From: Balneola sp. | GTDB lineage: Bacteria > Bacteroidota > Rhodothermia > Balneolales > Balneolaceae | Assembly: GCA_002696035.1 (NCBI GenBank) | Contig: NZQV01000010.1 | Span: 682,001 to 746,000, forward strand | Length of the DNA: 64,000 bases | Direction of reading: 5' to 3' | Shown here: positions 1-5,076 of the stretch, piece by piece | Layout of the letters: each line of letters starts with the position of its first letter | Numbering within the stretch: position 1 is the stretch's first letter | Position numbers and translations under genes: made by a program | The notes under the pieces: model-generated | Database searches by the model: none | What the model was told of the DNA's origin: nothing | What the model saw: the letters and a program-made list of their open reading frames with translations, nothing else

Positions 1-45
1 ATTGATTTCATCGAGTTCTTCGTATAGGACGTATCTTCCACACAT
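1..45 (-). CDS. SRAP domain protein (YedK/HMCES-like), N-terminus only
   Basis: Fifteen codons on the minus strand run off the left edge. They read MCGRYVLYEELDEIN. A Cys at residue 2 followed by GRY/GRF is the hallmark of SRAP (SOS response-associated peptidase) proteins, whose processed Cys2 forms a covalent crosslink to abasic sites in single-stranded DNA. Only this stretch is visible, so the rest of the active site (Asn and Glu/His residues) cannot be checked. The gene is divergent from the small gene starting at 117, with 71 bp between the two starts. The family call rests on the N-terminal signature alone. Confidence 0.7.
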   Translation of the reverse strand, partial: MCGRYVLYEELDEIN

Positions 46-116
46 AGCTTTCTTCTTTTCTTTCCATTTAGTAACTACAACCTGAAAGTATGATTTCTTA
101 CCGAGATTTATAATCC

Positions 117-386
117 ATGCCTGAAAAAGAAAAGTTTGCCCATATTGAACGTTATCTGCAGCTGGGAATGGTACATCTGGAAGAACCTCGGGTTATTTAT
201 TGGTACGGTTCAGGCTTTGGAGATTTTCATGTAGAGTGGATAGATAAACCAGCTGTTTGGGAGGGTACTCAGATACTTCATGATATAGAACAAAAGACCT
301 TGGAGTTACAGCGCGATGGAACTAAAGATTTTCCTTATTTGGATTACTTTGAGTATATGGAGCGAATTGGGGTGCCGCCAATTTGA
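117..386 (+). CDS. hypothetical protein, 89 aa, divergent from SRAP gene
   Basis: I do not recognise this protein. It is small, acidic and rich in aromatic residues (a YWYGSGFGDFHVEW stretch near residues 29-42), with no signal peptide and no membrane segment. The ATG follows a 71-bp gap shared with the divergent SRAP gene, so the two may share a control region. Downstream, reading on in nearby frames to about 570 gives short broken peptides, which could be a decayed neighbour. Coding is supported by an amino-acid composition unlike random translation, but no family evidence is available. Confidence 0.5.
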   Translation: MPEKEKFAHIERYLQLGMVHLEEPRVIYWYGSGFGDFHVEWIDKPAVWEGTQILHDIEQKTLELQRDGTKDFPYLDYFEYMERIGVPPI

Positions 387-707
387 AAGTAATATCGATT
401 AATCCTCCTCATTCGGTTAAACTATATTGATTTGAGCATCTTAAGGAAGAGAAAGCAAAAGAATTAGAACAACATCAAATCTCTACTTACCAGAAGTACT
501 CAACCCTGTCTATTTCGATAAGTAAAGCCGACACTAGCAATAAAAATACTGATACTGAAAATTGAAATTGATGTATACCGATCATCATTATACCAACGCT
601 TTTTTAAATTTTGACAATTTAATTTTTTTAGGTTTATCACATATTTAGCCTAAATAATAATTTTGCATTATCTCAATTTTCGCAAAATTCGGACTACCTG
701 CTGAAAA
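387..707. other. gene-free AT-rich stretch
   Basis: No convincing gene is visible. A short plus-strand reading near 434-565 has a charged, helix-like composition (a KEEKAKELEQHQ segment) but no start and in-frame stops on both sides. It may be a gene remnant. No terminator hairpin was seen after the 386 stop. Confidence 0.4.
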
Positions 708-1002
708 ATGTTTCATTGGTGATTTAGGGCCTGATTTAGGGCTTTGCAGGCTTTAAAGAAGGATTTCTTTGAAACATTTGAATGTTTCATGATGTTTCAT
801 AGGTTTTTAGGTAATTACTTAAATTGTTTATTATCAATATATTAATTGAATTTCAATTTGAAACATTTATGAAACATGAATGTTACCGTTTTTGGGTAAA
901 ATGTTTCATACTGTTTCATAAATGTTTCAAAAAATGTTTCATAAATATAGGTGTTTAATGGTGCTTAAAGATTGAATATTCGACTTTGAAACATTGAAAC
1001 AT
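708..1002. repeat. iteron-like cluster of 12 TGTTTCAT/ATGAAACA words
   Basis: Twelve copies of the 8-bp word TGTTTCA(T) lie in 295 bp. Seven are in the plus orientation (starting near 708, 782, 792, 901, 911, 922 and 934; two have one mismatch at an edge) and five are inverted (near 770, 859, 869, 987 and 995). Several lie 8-12 bp apart, about one helical turn. The surrounding DNA is very AT-rich. Clustered short words in both orientations next to a replication-like winged-helix gene resemble an iteron origin, a partition site or a multi-site operator. I cannot tell which. Confidence 0.6.
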
Positions 1003-1629
1003 TTATTATGGTCATTTCTAAAAACCGAAATAGCCTCTTAAATTATTTAGGTTAAAATTTTAACTTATAGGTATGTTCCTATCAATTTACTGAACATCCA
1101 GCTTACACAAATCTAAACTGTGTTAAGGCATGAATCTATTTAGTTTACTAACGTAGTGTTACCTCTTTTTCTGGAAGGTCAAGACATGAAAGACATTAGA
1201 TAGTATTCTGTTGAAGTTAAAATAATTTGCCTTGTAACAAATATTGCTTCTAAGAGCCTCAAATCATCATATCCAATGGTAAGATCCAAAAATGAGCCAC
1301 TTCCAGGTTATTATGCTGGAGAAAACTTGAAAAGAAATAAGACTTCCATTTTAATATTGAAGAGATGTAATGATGGTCTGATTCTTTGATGCTATTAAAA
1401 ATTACCTGTGGGTGCTGGGTCCGACAAAATTACTTTAGATACTTTCCTAATTCAGGATATCCGAATTAGTGTTATTAATTATTAAGAAGTGCTTCATTCA
1501 GCTCATATTACAAAACTGAGTAACATTATTGACCTTCCAATACTTTACCACTGTTCTTTTTTTGAACTTAAATGGTCCCTTTATGATAGATTTGTATAGG
1601 TGAGTGTTTTATTGGAATATATAGAAACA
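1003..1629. other. gene-free AT-rich stretch
   Basis: No open reading frame with coding character is visible on either strand. Composition is AT-rich and similar to the flanking accessory genes. Apart from the repeat cluster to the left and the dyad at 1630 to the right, I see no organised structure here. Confidence 0.4.
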
Positions 1630-1663
1630 GAAATGCTCTTTAATAACCATTAAAGAGCATTTC
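1630..1663. terminator. perfect 15-bp inverted repeat after the winged-helix gene
   Basis: GAAATGCTCTTTAAT at 1630-1644 pairs perfectly with 1649-1663 across a 4-nt AACC loop. It lies 42 bp beyond the stop of the minus-strand gene ending at 1706, where a terminator is expected. There is no long U-tract on either side, so it could instead be a binding dyad or a replication structure. Confidence 0.5.
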
Positions 1664-1705
1664 TGAATTACTGCCGTATTTGAAAACCATCCCATATGGT
1701 TAAAA

Positions 1706-2104
1706 TTAAGTAAAAAGAATATCCTCAAATTCCTGTTTAGGAGTATGTTTAAATGCTATGTGACATTTTTGAACGGCCATTTCTGAACCTTCAGATCTAT
1801 GAAAGAACATTGTGTTTAAAGCATAAGTAAACACTTTTGTATGGGTATATTTAATAATATAATCCAGCTCAGTTAGTGAGTCGAGACCTCGTATGACCGT
1901 ATTTTTTGCTAGGCCTGAATACTGGACAAATTCCTTTAAAGAAATTTGAGCTTCTTGCAAGCACCTACCATATGTTAATTGATAGATTAATAGTAATAAC
2001 TTGAATTCGCTACCCTGCAGATGGCGCATTTTTTGCGTAACAAAAAAGTGTACCAACTTATCGGGATCAATTGATATATAATTTATTGAATCATCCATTG
2101 TCAT
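1706..2104 (-). CDS. winged-helix protein, possible replication initiator or regulator
   Basis: This 132-aa protein has a central helix-turn-helix of winged type: the stretch FKLLLLIYQLTYG (about residues 34-46) is followed by ISLKEFVQYSGLAKNTVIRG (about 54-73), which resembles the N-terminal DNA-binding fold of plasmid and phage replication proteins (RepA/DnaD/phage O type). The C-terminal third is not recognisable. ATG codons at residues 1 and 3 are both possible starts. It is the last of three minus-strand accessory genes and reads toward the TGTTTCAT repeat cluster about 700 bp away, which would fit a replication or partition role. That role is inference. A generic transcriptional regulator is the main alternative. 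Confidence 0.55.
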   Translation of the reverse strand: MTMDDSINYISIDPDKLVHFFVTQKMRHLQGSEFKLLLLIYQLTYGRCLQEAQISLKEFVQYSGLAKNTVIRGLDSLTELDYIIKYTHTKVFTYALNTMFFHRSEGSEMAVQKCHIAFKHTPKQEFEDILFT

Positions 2105-2126
2105 GTAAATTTAAAATTTGAGGTGA

Positions 2127-2375
2127 TTAGTCTTGTTCTATTAAAGACCGTTGGTCTGTGAGTACGGGGCGTTTAGCTCGACGTATACGCAAGGCCTTAG
2201 CAGCCTCTTTTAATTTCTCATGAGACCAAACTCGTCTACCTCCTATTTTATCCGGAGATTCAATTGCCCCGGAACGAATGAGATTATCCAGGTCGTAATA
2301 TTTTACTTTTTGCTCAAGCTGTTGGGTAAGATATTCGGCCGCTTCGCCGGTTGTGAGATAGTGTTTGATATCCAT
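2127..2375 (-). CDS. MerR-like/excisionase-like helix-turn-helix protein
   Basis: This 82-aa protein reads as one small DNA-binding domain. LTTGEAAEYL near the N-terminus is the usual start of a MerR/excisionase HTH (a TGEAAEYLG-like helix), followed by a linker (IRSGAIESPDKIGGRRVW) typical of the recognition wing. There is no effector domain. In mobile elements such proteins act as recombination directionality factors or small regulators. It lies 22 bp upstream of the winged-helix gene and 105 bp downstream of the 484-aa gene on the same strand, so all three may be co-transcribed. No integrase gene was found in the window to serve as partner. Confidence 0.7.
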   Translation of the reverse strand: MDIKHYLTTGEAAEYLTQQLEQKVKYYDLDNLIRSGAIESPDKIGGRRVWSHEKLKEAAKALRIRRAKRPVLTDQRSLIEQD

Positions 2376-2480
2376 AATTCAGAATTTAATTGCGGTTGAT
2401 GAGCACAACTACTGCGTTGCTCACAATTAAAGTCTGGGTGTCAGGATTTCCGGTTGTAGGAATTAAAATTATTTTAATTC

Positions 2481-3935
2481 CTATTTGTTAGTTAGAGCAT
2501 TTTCGATTCTTTTACTGTTAATAAAATTATCTTCTAATATTCTCCTCTGATAGTAATTCTTTAGAGTAATCTCGATAATTGACTTGATCTCTTCAGGTTC
2601 CAATTTACCTTTTACTCCCGATTTATTAGAATACCTATAAACTTTATCCTGCAAAATATTTAAGTCATTAATTTTTAATGTCTTTTTTAAGCCACTTTTA
2701 AATAAATACCCTGATAATGTTTTACTTACATCTTCTAAATCAATAGAGTCTTCTTGATAATCTATATCCCCTAAATTTTTAGACCCAGAAATAATAAATC
2801 TTGTTTCATTTATAAGATAATTTATTGAATCTTCAACCAAAGCTTTAAAAGCAATGTGTTCTAGGTAAGTAAAGATTAGAAGAGCGTGAATAATTGGATC
2901 CCTAGACTCAATTCCAAAATTATAGTCCTTGAAAAATTCTAAAATTTCATATCGGTTTTTAAAAGCCCATTTTTCTTTTAAATCAACACCCTTGATTATT
3001 TTTTCACCATTACCCAAAGTATTTTTAAAGCTTTTGAAATCTTCACTGTACTCCATGTACTCAGTTACGCTGAAATCTTTATAGTATGGAATGAGATATG
3101 CATTGCTTTTTTCATTGACTTTAAAATCTTCATATAAATTAATAGCTGTACTAAAAAAGTCATCCAATATTTTTGGAAATTGTATAAGTCTATCGTTTTC
3201 ATAGAAGCTGTCATATCTCTCTGTTCGTATAATACCTGATAATAGGCTCTTACCACTATTAAAGAACTTATCATAAAACGGAAATGAGAATAACAGTAAA
3301 GGGAGCTTTCCTAGATCTTTTACATGTTTAAAATTCCAATTGAGATAATTGAAATCAATAGTTTTGGCAGCATAAAAATCAGATAAATTGTATTTATATT
3401 CATGTATATATTCATTTATAGTATTCAGCATATATTCTGGATACCTATTCAAAAAATTACCAATATAACATGAACCTCTAATAACGCAATTATCCAAATC
3501 AGATGAGTTAGCTTTATTCTTATTTCCAAAATTTAATTGTGCTAAAGCTGATTCAGCATCTCTAATCCCAAAAGGATTATCCAATTTTAACGAGTTTTTT
3601 CCATCATCCACTCTTCCATCTCCAGCCAAATAAAAAGTAATTCCTTCAATAATTTTTAAATCTTCTACTATCCGGTCCTTATAAGAATGTTTTTTTCGTA
3701 GTGGCCAGTCTAGAAAAATTTCTTTAATCTCATTTTCTGAAAGGTTCATTGGATCCTCAGAAAGAAGGCTACGAATAGAAGGGTTACCATCATTTTGATT
3801 AGATGTGTAAACGAATTTAGCTCCTCCCTCTTTTTTAAGTTCTATAGTTGCACTATGTTTCTCTAGATACCGAACAAATAGAGATAACCTTTTCTGATCA
3901 ATATTGTGTATCTGATCCTTTTTTTTAGGAGCCAT
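2481..3935 (-). CDS. unrecognised 484-aa accessory protein
   Basis: I do not recognise this protein. It starts at an ATG after a lysine-rich MAPKKKDQ sequence, has no signal peptide or transmembrane segment, and is rich in Asp, Asn, Lys, Tyr and Phe, as expected from its very AT-rich DNA. I see no Walker, HNH, PD-(D/E)XK or recombinase motif. Repeated amphipathic stretches suggest a mostly helical soluble protein. It heads a minus-strand trio with two DNA-binding proteins and lies about 270 bp from tRNA-Leu. Position and composition indicate mobile-element cargo or a replication/defence protein. The specific function is unknown. Confidence 0.7.
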   Translation of the reverse strand: MAPKKKDQIHNIDQKRLSLFVRYLEKHSATIELKKEGGAKFVYTSNQNDGNPSIRSLLSEDPMNLSENEIKEIFLDWPLRKKHSYKDRIVEDLKIIEGITFYLAGDGRVDDGKNSLKLDNPFGIRDAESALAQLNFGNKNKANSSDLDNCVIRGSCYIGNFLNRYPEYMLNTINEYIHEYKYNLSDFYAAKTIDFNYLNWNFKHVKDLGKLPLLLFSFPFYDKFFNSGKSLLSGIIRTERYDSFYENDRLIQFPKILDDFFSTAINLYEDFKVNEKSNAYLIPYYKDFSVTEYMEYSEDFKSFKNTLGNGEKIIKGVDLKEKWAFKNRYEILEFFKDYNFGIESRDPIIHALLIFTYLEHIAFKALVEDSINYLINETRFIISGSKNLGDIDYQEDSIDLEDVSKTLSGYLFKSGLKKTLKINDLNILQDKVYRYSNKSGVKGKLEPEEIKSIIEITLKNYYQRRILEDNFINSKRIENALTNK

Positions 3936-4201
3936 TTTTTTATTTACAATTCATTAGTTAGCTATAATAAAAGCAAAATAACTGGAAAGAACTTTGTAGA
4001 AGTAATTCCTAAAGCCTTATATTTGGTTCTCTCTGAAAAGAGAAGTTCTTTAACAATACTGGAAAGTAACTTTATTTCGTTTTGTCACCAAAGTGTTACT
4101 AAACTTGGGGCGAAATTGGCCATAATTAGTACGTTTTATGTAGTAGTTCATTTTTACAATTACTACTTTAAACTGCTTAATTATAGACACTTAAGGAATT
4201 A

Positions 4202-4283
4202 GCCAAAGTGGCGGAATTGGTAGACGCGCGCGACTCAAAATCGCGTTTCTTCGGAAGTGAGGGTTCGAGTCCCTCCTTTGGTA
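4202..4283 (+). tRNA. tRNA-Leu (anticodon CAA)
   Basis: The acceptor stem GCCAAAG pairs with CTTTGGT (one G-U), followed by discriminator A. The D arm is GCGGAATTGGTAGACGC, the anticodon stem-loop CGCGA-CTCAAAA-TCGCG gives anticodon CAA, a long variable arm with a TTC-TTCG-GAA hairpin marks a class II tRNA, and the T arm GAGGG-TTCGAGT-CCCTC is intact. CCA is not encoded. The 3' half is repeated twice downstream, the classic outcome of integration into a tRNA gene. Confidence 0.95.
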
Positions 4284-4287
4284 CTAA
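4233..4287 (+). repeat. attachment-site copy 1 (inside tRNA-Leu)
   Basis: This 55-bp segment runs from the anticodon stem/loop through the 3' end of tRNA-Leu plus four bases. It is identical to 4631-4685, and a diverged copy starts at 4966. Anticodon-loop-to-3'-end identity is the usual crossover segment for tyrosine recombinases at tRNA genes. Confidence 0.85.
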
Positions 4288-4296
4288 CACAAAATC

Positions 4297-4338
4297 AAGC
4301 CTAATAAGCGCTGTAACAGCGTTTTTGGGCTTTTTTTT
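4297..4338 (+). terminator. terminator after tRNA-Leu
   Basis: An outer stem AAGCC/GGCTT encloses an inner stem CGCTG-TAA-CAGCG and is followed by eight T residues. It ends tRNA-Leu transcription. Its sequence differs from the terminators behind att copies 2 and 3, which suggests it arrived with an inserted segment. Confidence 0.75.
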
Positions 4339-4410
4339 ATGTACGATTTTTTTGCAGTGAGAGCTATTTTTTTTCATAGATACGGCAAATTTCCCACATT
4401 TTCCAAAAAG

Positions 4411-4579
4411 GTGGGTACACAAGTGGGTACAAAAAAATATTGGCAAGCATTAAAAAAGGACAAGAAATACTATGTTTGTCTGTTAAAACTTTGGACGGTC
4501 AGCGCCAGTAAAAATCTATTGACTAAGGAACAGAAATATTCCCAAATATTCCCAAAAGGTGGGTACAAATCTGGGTACA
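4411..4579 (+). repeat. two pairs of 9-bp GTGGGTACA repeats, candidate recombinase arm sites
   Basis: GTGGGTACA occurs at 4411-4419 and 4423-4431, and again at 4559-4567 with CTGGGTACA at 4571-4579. Each pair has a 12-bp period, and both pairs are preceded by similar TTCCAAAAAG/TTCCCAAAAG sequence. They lie between att copies 1 and 2. Paired short direct repeats beside a core att site are typical arm-type integrase binding sites. No integrase gene is present, so this would be the surviving attP arm of a lost element. Confidence 0.6.
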
Positions 4580-4630
4580 TGAGTTTCAATAACATGCCTT
4601 TAAAGCACTTATACATACGTTTTGAACACT

Positions 4631-4685
4631 ACTCAAAATCGCGTTTCTTCGGAAGTGAGGGTTCGAGTCCCTCCTTTGGTACTAA
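4631..4685 (+). repeat. attachment-site copy 2 (55-bp exact tRNA-Leu 3' duplicate)
   Basis: It is identical over 55 bp to 4233-4287. There is no tRNA 5' half upstream, so it cannot make a tRNA. It bounds a 400-bp segment holding the GTGGGTACA repeats on its left and the GIY-YIG unit on its right. Confidence 0.9.
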
Positions 4686-4717
4686 AAGCCTTGCAGATTT
4701 CTGTAAGGCTTTTTTTA
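4686..4717 (+). terminator. terminator after att copy 2
   Basis: AAGCCTTGCAG pairs with CTGTAAGGCTT across a short loop and is followed by seven T residues. It is similar in sequence to the terminator behind att copy 3, so the duplicated unit includes the tRNA terminator. Confidence 0.75.
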
Positions 4718-4724
4718 TTCAAGT

Positions 4725-4964
4725 ATGTTTTATGTGTATGCCATATCTAGTATTGATCGCAATTATATCTACGTCGGATTAACAAGTAATCTTGAGCAGA
4801 GAGTTAGCTATCATCCAAAGGGCTATGAAAAAACCACTAAGCCTTATGCGCCTTTTCATCTCATTTACTCAGAAACTTTCCAAACCAGAAAAGAGGCTAG
4901 GAATAAAGAAAAGTATTTGAAATCCGGGTCTGGTAAAGAATTTCTCAAGTCATTAGAAGATTAG
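4725..4964 (+). CDS. GIY-YIG endonuclease domain protein (79 aa)
   Basis: This is a single-domain GIY-YIG nuclease of the small UvrC-N-like type. The N-terminus FYVYAISS and IYVGLTSNLEQRV carry the two catalytic-region tyrosines and the conserved Arg. YHPKGYEKTTK and PFHLIYSE follow, and RKEARNKEKYLKS carries the metal-binding Glu. Length is normal for the family (about 80-100 aa). The ATG lies just past the terminator of att copy 2, and the stop codon ends one base before att copy 3, so the gene fills the gap between two tRNA-Leu 3' copies almost exactly. Proteins of this fold include homing endonucleases. Cleavage of the tRNA gene by this protein is inference. Confidence 0.88.
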   Translation: MFYVYAISSIDRNYIYVGLTSNLEQRVSYHPKGYEKTTKPYAPFHLIYSETFQTRKEARNKEKYLKSGSGKEFLKSLED

Positions 4965-4965
4965 A

Positions 4966-5039
4966 CAAAATCGCGTTCCTTCGGGAGTTCGGGCCTGCCT
5001 GCCGGCAAAGGCAGGTTCGAGTCCCTCCTTTGGTACTAA
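4966..5039 (+). repeat. attachment-site copy 3, diverged and interrupted
   Basis: It begins in the anticodon loop (CAAAATCGCG) and runs to the tRNA 3' end. The variable arm differs from copies 1 and 2, and 22 bp (4994-5015, CCTGCCTGCCGGCAAAGGCAGG) interrupt the T arm exactly between GGG and TTCGAGT. The likely reading is the outermost, oldest chromosomal end of the original tRNA gene, later hit by a palindromic repeat. Confidence 0.8.
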
Positions 5040-5076
5040 AAGCCTTGTAAATCAATGATTTGCAAGGCTTTTTTAT
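5040..5076 (+). terminator. terminator after att copy 3
   Basis: A near-perfect hairpin AAGCCTTGTAAATCA/TGATTTGCAAGGCTT (one G-U) is followed by six T residues. It is the strongest of the three tRNA-Leu terminators and probably the original one. Confidence 0.8.

Follow-up and report, generated by a model that had tools for sequence, protein, structure and literature searches.

The stretch of DNA that we analyzed, hereafter the window, comprises 64,000 nucleotides of Balneola sp. (GCA_002696035.1, contig NZQV01000010.1, positions 682,001 to 746,000 of the forward strand) and is numbered from 1 to 64,000; the genome to which it belongs is designated G000. The locus of interest holds a leucine tRNA gene, two further tRNA-Leu 3' ends and a small nuclease gene, arranged as follows.

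1-4201, no strand: right end of an approximately 40-kb integrase/BREX island, given for context only (whole island G000:C14:646433-686201).
4202-4284, plus strand: intact tRNA-Leu(CAA), identified by ARAGORN (copy 1), the tRNA to which the GIY-YIG unit is attached.
4285-4630, no strand: intervening segment of 346 bp with direct repeats resembling integrase arms (4382-4431 and 4530-4579).
4631-4685, plus strand: copy 2, an exact 55-bp tRNA-Leu 3' end forming the left border of the GIY-YIG unit.
4684-4719, plus strand: terminator-like hairpin and T run, its core identical to the left terminator of the unit in genome G007.
4725-4964, plus strand: gene for a 79-aa GIY-YIG nuclease (PF01541, E 3e-17).
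4966-5036, plus strand: copy 3, an altered tRNA-Leu 3' copy that spans the anticodon loop through the 3' end; it begins two bases past the stop codon of the ORF.
4994-5015, plus strand: 22-nt hairpin CCTGCCTGCCGGCAAAGGCAGG inside the T-arm of the altered copy, from reading of the sequence.
5036-5074, plus strand: second terminator, 3' of the altered copy, an inverted repeat.

The tRNA-Leu(CAA), the exact 55-bp copy, the diverged copy and the 79-aa ORF of the preliminary description were all confirmed, by ARAGORN, the repeats and the PF01541 match. By pattern search, the full-length tRNA-Leu(CAA) is single-copy in G000, the sole other occurrence being a truncated 5' copy at C14:646392. Copy 2, matching at 55 of 55 positions, is not attributable to chance, and the divergence of copy 3 is not random decay. 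The duplicated unit had been described as including a tRNA terminator; similar terminators follow copies 2 and 3, and that of copy 1 is different.

The three tRNA ends had also been described together, as a row, with tRNA 3' ends noted as tyrosine-recombinase sites. Our reading separates them: copies 1 and 2 lie outside the GIY-YIG unit, which includes no recombinase, and have the look of scars left by tyrosine-integrase elements. The segment between these copies carries repeated GTGGGTACA motifs resembling integrase arm sites and is missing at the homologous locus of G007, where the unit stands directly after the tRNA; it is probably the remnant of an integrative element outside the unit. The same tRNA-Leu(CAA) holds the approximately 40-kb island, which encodes a tyrosine integrase and the BREX genes PglZ, BrxL and PglX and repeats 42 bp of the tRNA 5' end at both of its ends, the right one just before position 4202. 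Because copies 1 and 2 flank arm-like repeats and this tRNA hosts an integrase/BREX island, the three ends in a row resolve into a GIY-YIG unit and separate integrase scars. Insertion of the island left a truncated 41-nt tRNA 5' end adjoining galE. In the related genome G007, the locus reads tRNA-Leu, terminator, GIY-YIG gene, altered 3' copy, terminator; since G007 has the unit alone and G000 has the same arrangement plus two insertions, copy 2 represents a duplication of integrase type, and the borders of the GIY-YIG unit are copies 2 and 3.

That integrative elements made all three tRNA ends, with the GIY-YIG gene as passenger cargo, would suit the presence of both the island and an integrase-like remnant at this very tRNA, as well as the classical role of tRNA ends as att sites. 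This explanation accounts for copies 1 and 2 but not for copy 3, and it leaves aside units without an integrase in G007 and many other genomes, their hairpin-altered copies, the mirror 5' form and the isotype-matched subfamilies described below. Whereas a tyrosine-recombinase integrative element has its own integrase and direct att repeats, as the neighboring BREX island has its integrase, the GIY-YIG unit of G007 has none. Integrase scars as the entire explanation are ruled out by the integrase-free units in G007 and other genomes, and for the GIY-YIG unit the empty/filled pair G001/G007, without any integrase, refutes this reading, which we therefore regard as extremely improbable.

The empty tRNA-Leu that the preliminary description had proposed for comparison is found at syntenic sites in genome G001 and in genus g50. 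The G001 locus consists of tRNA-Leu and a terminator only, and BLASTN comparison with the filled G007 locus over shared flanks puts the net insertion at 361 bp, with a direct repeat of 62 bp and an unchanged tRNA. Of about 24 tRNA-Leu(CAA) sites that are syntenic within genus g50, 3 are filled; in the window's genus, 5 of 9 genomes have a filled Met locus and 2 of 10 a filled Leu-CAA locus. The unit therefore displays the recurrent presence and absence at an allelic site, with a clean empty allele, that is characteristic of homing elements.

The nuclease has the GIY-YIG fold together with the two tyrosines, arginine, histidine and glutamate of the superfamily's active site: among 31 relatives, Y5, Y16, G18, H30 and E62 are invariant and R26 is nearly so. 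An AlphaFold model (pLDDT 92) matches Slx1, the I-TevI catalytic domain and UPF0213 BH0048, and consists of the catalytic fold alone, with no additional DNA-binding domain. BH0048 is also matched by phmmer (E 3e-4), and the window protein matched no NCBIfam family. The UPF0213/YhbQ and Slx1 proteins, likewise single-domain GIY-YIG, provide the best sequence and fold matches (1zg2; Slx1-Slx4 entries) but are only about 20-33% identical to the window protein; to our knowledge, theirs are resident genes with no tRNA linkage. A dN/dS of 0.11 for the window ORF against that of G007, and values of 0.04-0.16 across non-saturated pairs (with one exception, a pair too close to judge), point to purifying selection on the nuclease ORF.

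A scan of GTDB genomes with the window protein yielded 72 named loci, mostly in Bacteroidota, and a few on contigs labelled Ignavibacteria, Verrucomicrobia, Omnitrophota and Candidate Phyla, from bins that may be impure. In 57 of these 72 loci an intact tRNA gene lies on the same strand within about 250 bp (28 upstream, 28 downstream and 1 on both sides); the remaining 15 are largely contig ends, or carry altered tRNA halves or repeat units. The family is present in 89 of the 148 genomes of the phylum. When 90 clusters were read, 72 had an intact same-strand tRNA within 450 bp (54 of type I, 15 of type II and 3 of both), and the tRNAs adjoined in the 90 clusters belong to at least 12 isotypes: Leu, Ser, Met, Asp, Asn, Ala, Gly, Val, Cys, Pro, Arg and Gln. 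We estimate, from about 45 tRNA genes in 3.7 Mb, that a random gene would show such same-strand proximity in roughly 0.5% of cases. As a control, 38 matches to small GIY-YIG genes of other kinds were inspected in the same set of Balneolaceae genomes, and none had a tRNA in the flank read. The proposed unit of tRNA end and GIY-YIG gene is thus real, recurs beside many tRNA genes and keeps the tRNA intact, and homologues of this subfamily are not scattered at random positions without tRNA fragments.

Two mirror forms, equally common in the 72-locus set, were recognized: an intact tRNA followed by the GIY-YIG gene and an altered 3' copy, and an altered 5' copy followed by the GIY-YIG gene and an intact tRNA. 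In the upstream-tRNA form, an altered 3' copy follows the ORF as a rule, if not always. The unit inserts next to or within a tRNA gene of one particular isotype, leaving an intact tRNA at one end and the altered copy at the opposite end. A group I intron would splice out of its host tRNA; at loci with an adjacent tRNA, the tRNA beside the unit is intact and uninterrupted. At one further locus in G000 (L004, G000:C22:26558), a GIY-YIG gene lies after tRNA-Gly(GCC) and an altered, hairpin-bearing tRNA-Gly copy lies before it, the reverse of the order in the window.

The nuclease subfamilies are dedicated to particular tRNA isotypes. In a tree of 245 proteins, 141 of them with an assigned tRNA, which is poorly resolved with many open forks owing to the shortness of the sequences, the isotype changes 25 times, compared with 78.6 times (s.d. 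2.3, minimum 72) when labels are shuffled. The nearest neighbor at no more than 75% identity shares the isotype in 112 of 141 cases (chance 0.21). The mirror type changes 20 times on the tree, against 37.9 with shuffled labels; together, the two counts indicate that one lineage uses both arrangements and keeps its tRNA.

The altered tRNA copies share a distinctive architecture. In the first set, 52 of 58 carry inserts, and 60 of the 63 inserts of at least 12 nt fold as hairpins, with a mean folding energy of -9.1 kcal/mol compared with -3.8 kcal/mol for shuffled sequences. The inserts follow tRNA positions 8, 14-17 or 23 in 5' copies and mostly 62-69 in 3' copies. For the wider type I set, a 3' copy was recognizable in 72 of 93 loci, and 50 of these 72 contain a GC hairpin whose stem is 6 bp or longer, compared with 17 of 206 control windows. 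The hairpins vary between isotypes and recur within one: TCCGCC-N4-GGCGGA in Met, TCCCGAC..GTCGGGA in Asp, TCCCGA..TCGGGA in Ala, TGGCGC..GCGCCA in Pro and CCTGYCTRCC.. in Leu and Ser. The Met form is found again in an eight-unit array of a distant family (L259).

Within the altered copy, the 32-nt stretch GTTCCTTCGGGAGTTCGGGCCTGCCTGCCGGC, which is not tRNA sequence, is identical between G000 and G007 despite a synonymous distance (pS) of 0.60 in the adjoining ORF. For this reason we read the altered copy as being under purifying selection, on the basis of this one measured pair and the visible conservation of the Met copies, and the same identity disfavors a neutral relic. The altered copy is best understood from its sequence as a component of the unit, not debris. 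The duplicated tRNA 3' end of the preliminary description is therefore present, but as a hairpin-altered, conserved component instead of a plain copy, and the mirror form uses the 5' half. The underlying idea of a compact unit that targets a tRNA and restores it is partly supported: it was right in kind, but neither the integrase part nor the plain copy of a 3' end stands.

Two candidate generalizations were set aside. Insertion sharply at the anticodon loop is a tendency only, as the breakpoints are broadly distributed (positions 4-61 and 24-71). Similarly, the 20-mer CCTGYCTRCCGRCAGGYAGR is no unique hallmark of the element, since it is scattered over 26 of 148 genomes, for the most part not near tRNAs, and other isotypes have unrelated hairpins. 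This palindrome (L154-L181) has 0-30 matches per genome, compared with none for the reversed pattern, and often occupies the loop of another palindrome; 24 of the 26 genomes with CCTGYCTRCCGRCAGGYAGR also carry the tRNA-type GIY-YIG family, compared with 89 of 148 overall.

Related GIY-YIG ORFs also occur in other settings. Two lie directly 3' of a tmRNA gene (L250 and L301; Rfam RF00023 matches), and two others (L251 and L289, in G088 and G098) are found at the 5' part of the gene for RNase P RNA, between the near-perfect inverted repeats AGCACATAACGTTCATTGTTC / GAACAATGAACGTTATGTGCT. Short inverted repeats flank the GIY-YIG ORFs of L282, L276 and L307, the first of which interrupts a tyrosine-integrase-like gene. 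In addition, G000 contains a second small GIY-YIG subfamily, of VYTGVT type (L003, L005 and L006), situated between GTCATCC..GGGATGAC-like dispersed palindromes and not near tRNAs.

The units multiply locally and appear to have spread beyond the phylogeny of their hosts. Tandem arrays of 2-8 units were found in 20 of the 90 clusters, with adjacent units up to 100% identical and with decayed copies among them; one array (L259, G087:C34:6986-9752) comprises eight units, each about 365 bp long and carrying an altered 3' copy of tRNA-Met. The window nuclease shares 72% identity with a type II Leu protein from G065, while the ribosomal L2 proteins of the two hosts, which belong to different classes, are 62% identical, and this excess in a fast-evolving nuclease is hard to explain without horizontal transfer. 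The relatives on Candidate Phyla contigs likewise extend beyond host phylogeny, as is characteristic of homing elements. Between G000 and G007, pS is 0.60 for the GIY-YIG gene and 0.75 for the neighboring galE, a pair that alone is no proof of recent transfer. Searches of phage and plasmid collections gave no matches and so pointed to no vehicle; among viral contigs there were five matches, of which three or more lie in a tRNA context.

A gene useful to the host, encoding a resident enzyme that acts, for example, on tRNA genes, tRNA fragments or incoming integrative elements with tRNA ends, and that rides on tRNA promoters, would be expected to show the strong purifying selection seen here. 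It would also agree with the position of the Bacteroidota -7 box (TANNTTTG) in the mirror form, which precedes the altered half in 13 of 24 cases and the intact tRNA in 5 of 24 (empty sites, 16 of 19), so that the mirror-form tRNA may be transcribed through the nuclease gene. Patchy occupancy of syntenic sites, tandem amplification with decayed copies, isotype specificity and the occupation of nearly every isotype nevertheless fit a parasite better, and we consider a host-useful gene distinctly unlikely.

Taken together, these data make it probable, in our judgment, that the unit is a minimal selfish element dedicated to tRNA genes, composed of one GIY-YIG gene and a hairpin-altered partial copy of the target tRNA gene. 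In such an element, the nuclease would provoke recombination at its tRNA gene, in a homing-like repair of the break, and the tRNA parts on both sides would supply homology, such that the tRNA is always left whole. Nuclease-provoked recombination could likewise move the unit from lineage to lineage, and self-cutting or unequal exchange may give rise to the tandem arrays. Cleavage and mobility of the unit are inferred. A nuclease cutting inside a tRNA gene should attack its own host, and the classical protection of homing systems, in which the occupied allele carries an altered target, is not visible for a target within the tRNA gene, since filled G007 and empty G001 have the same tRNA sequence; some other limit on self-cutting must therefore exist. 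The same identity led us to reject the idea that the element supplies a protected (recoded) tRNA allele.

The main rival to a homing-like element is structure-guided transposition. RAYT/REP systems, in which a small nuclease gene of the HUH/Y1 superfamily lies between hairpins in bacterial chromosomes, offer the model: an Slx1-like nuclease would recognize folded single strands of the tRNA gene and the altered copy as ends, excise the unit and join it into another tRNA gene. The lack of a DNA-binding domain beyond the catalytic fold, the presence of Slx1 among the best fold matches, the retention of subfamily-typical hairpins in altered copies, the conservation of the altered copy in G000 and G007, and the location of some relatives within terminal inverted repeats in rnpB or an integrase gene are all in keeping with this route. 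However, the units have no target-site signature, the two mirror types share no defined ends, and altered-copy breakpoints are spread over positions 4-61 and 24-71. We judge this route unlikely. As systems, RAYT/REP and the GIY-YIG unit differ in nuclease superfamily, and the hairpins of the GIY-YIG unit sit in a copy of a tRNA gene.

Among known systems, fungal mitochondrial mobile endonuclease ORFs carry a replacement gene end, as at Allomyces atp6. They are similar in that the gene they interrupt is made whole again by an end that the element brings along, while the original end persists as a displaced remnant, but their hosts are protein-coding genes, and they are not known to have a hairpin-altered conserved copy or tRNA isotype specialization. 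We know of no homing system that includes a conserved hairpin-bearing tRNA copy. Nearest in kind is SegB of T-even phages, a free-standing GIY-YIG homing endonuclease that is often tRNA-linked and for which tandem amplification of a tRNA-nuclease segment via homologous recombination is described (PMC13096335; Brok-Volchanskaya 2008 as cited there). SegB and the unit share the GIY-YIG fold, the free-standing form, the association with tRNA genes, and recombination with tandem amplification, whereas SegB is phage-borne and not dedicated to one isotype, and it is not known to be accompanied by a hairpin-altered tRNA copy. The window protein further differs in its 79 aa without an added domain and in having no match in the phage collection. 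In the open-access literature on GIY-YIG proteins with tRNA genes and Bacteroidetes, REP elements, UPF0213 and the palindrome, we found nothing like the unit described in bacteria, and the family of minimal selfish elements is apparently undescribed.

A broader proposal, which we offer tentatively and with somewhat less than even confidence, is that these units form a hitherto undescribed class of tRNA-gene parasites extending throughout the phylum, whose elements consist wholly of a lone 75-80-aa GIY-YIG protein and a conserved hairpin-bearing tRNA-like copy, with one nuclease lineage per isotype. The copy would then be the cis-acting part, an end site or regulator, of a new recombination mechanism that possibly extends to tmRNA and RNase P RNA genes.

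Mobile DNA in bacteria lands in tRNA genes more often than at any other kind of site, but the users known so far are large integrase elements. The present unit, about 350 bp long, exploits tRNA genes across Bacteroidota, and its nucleases seem to have diversified along isotype lines. These natural nuclease-target pairs are a resource for understanding how a single-domain GIY-YIG enzyme chooses its site, and the hairpin-altered tRNA copies constitute a new kind of conserved tRNA-like element that can confuse tRNA and gene annotation.
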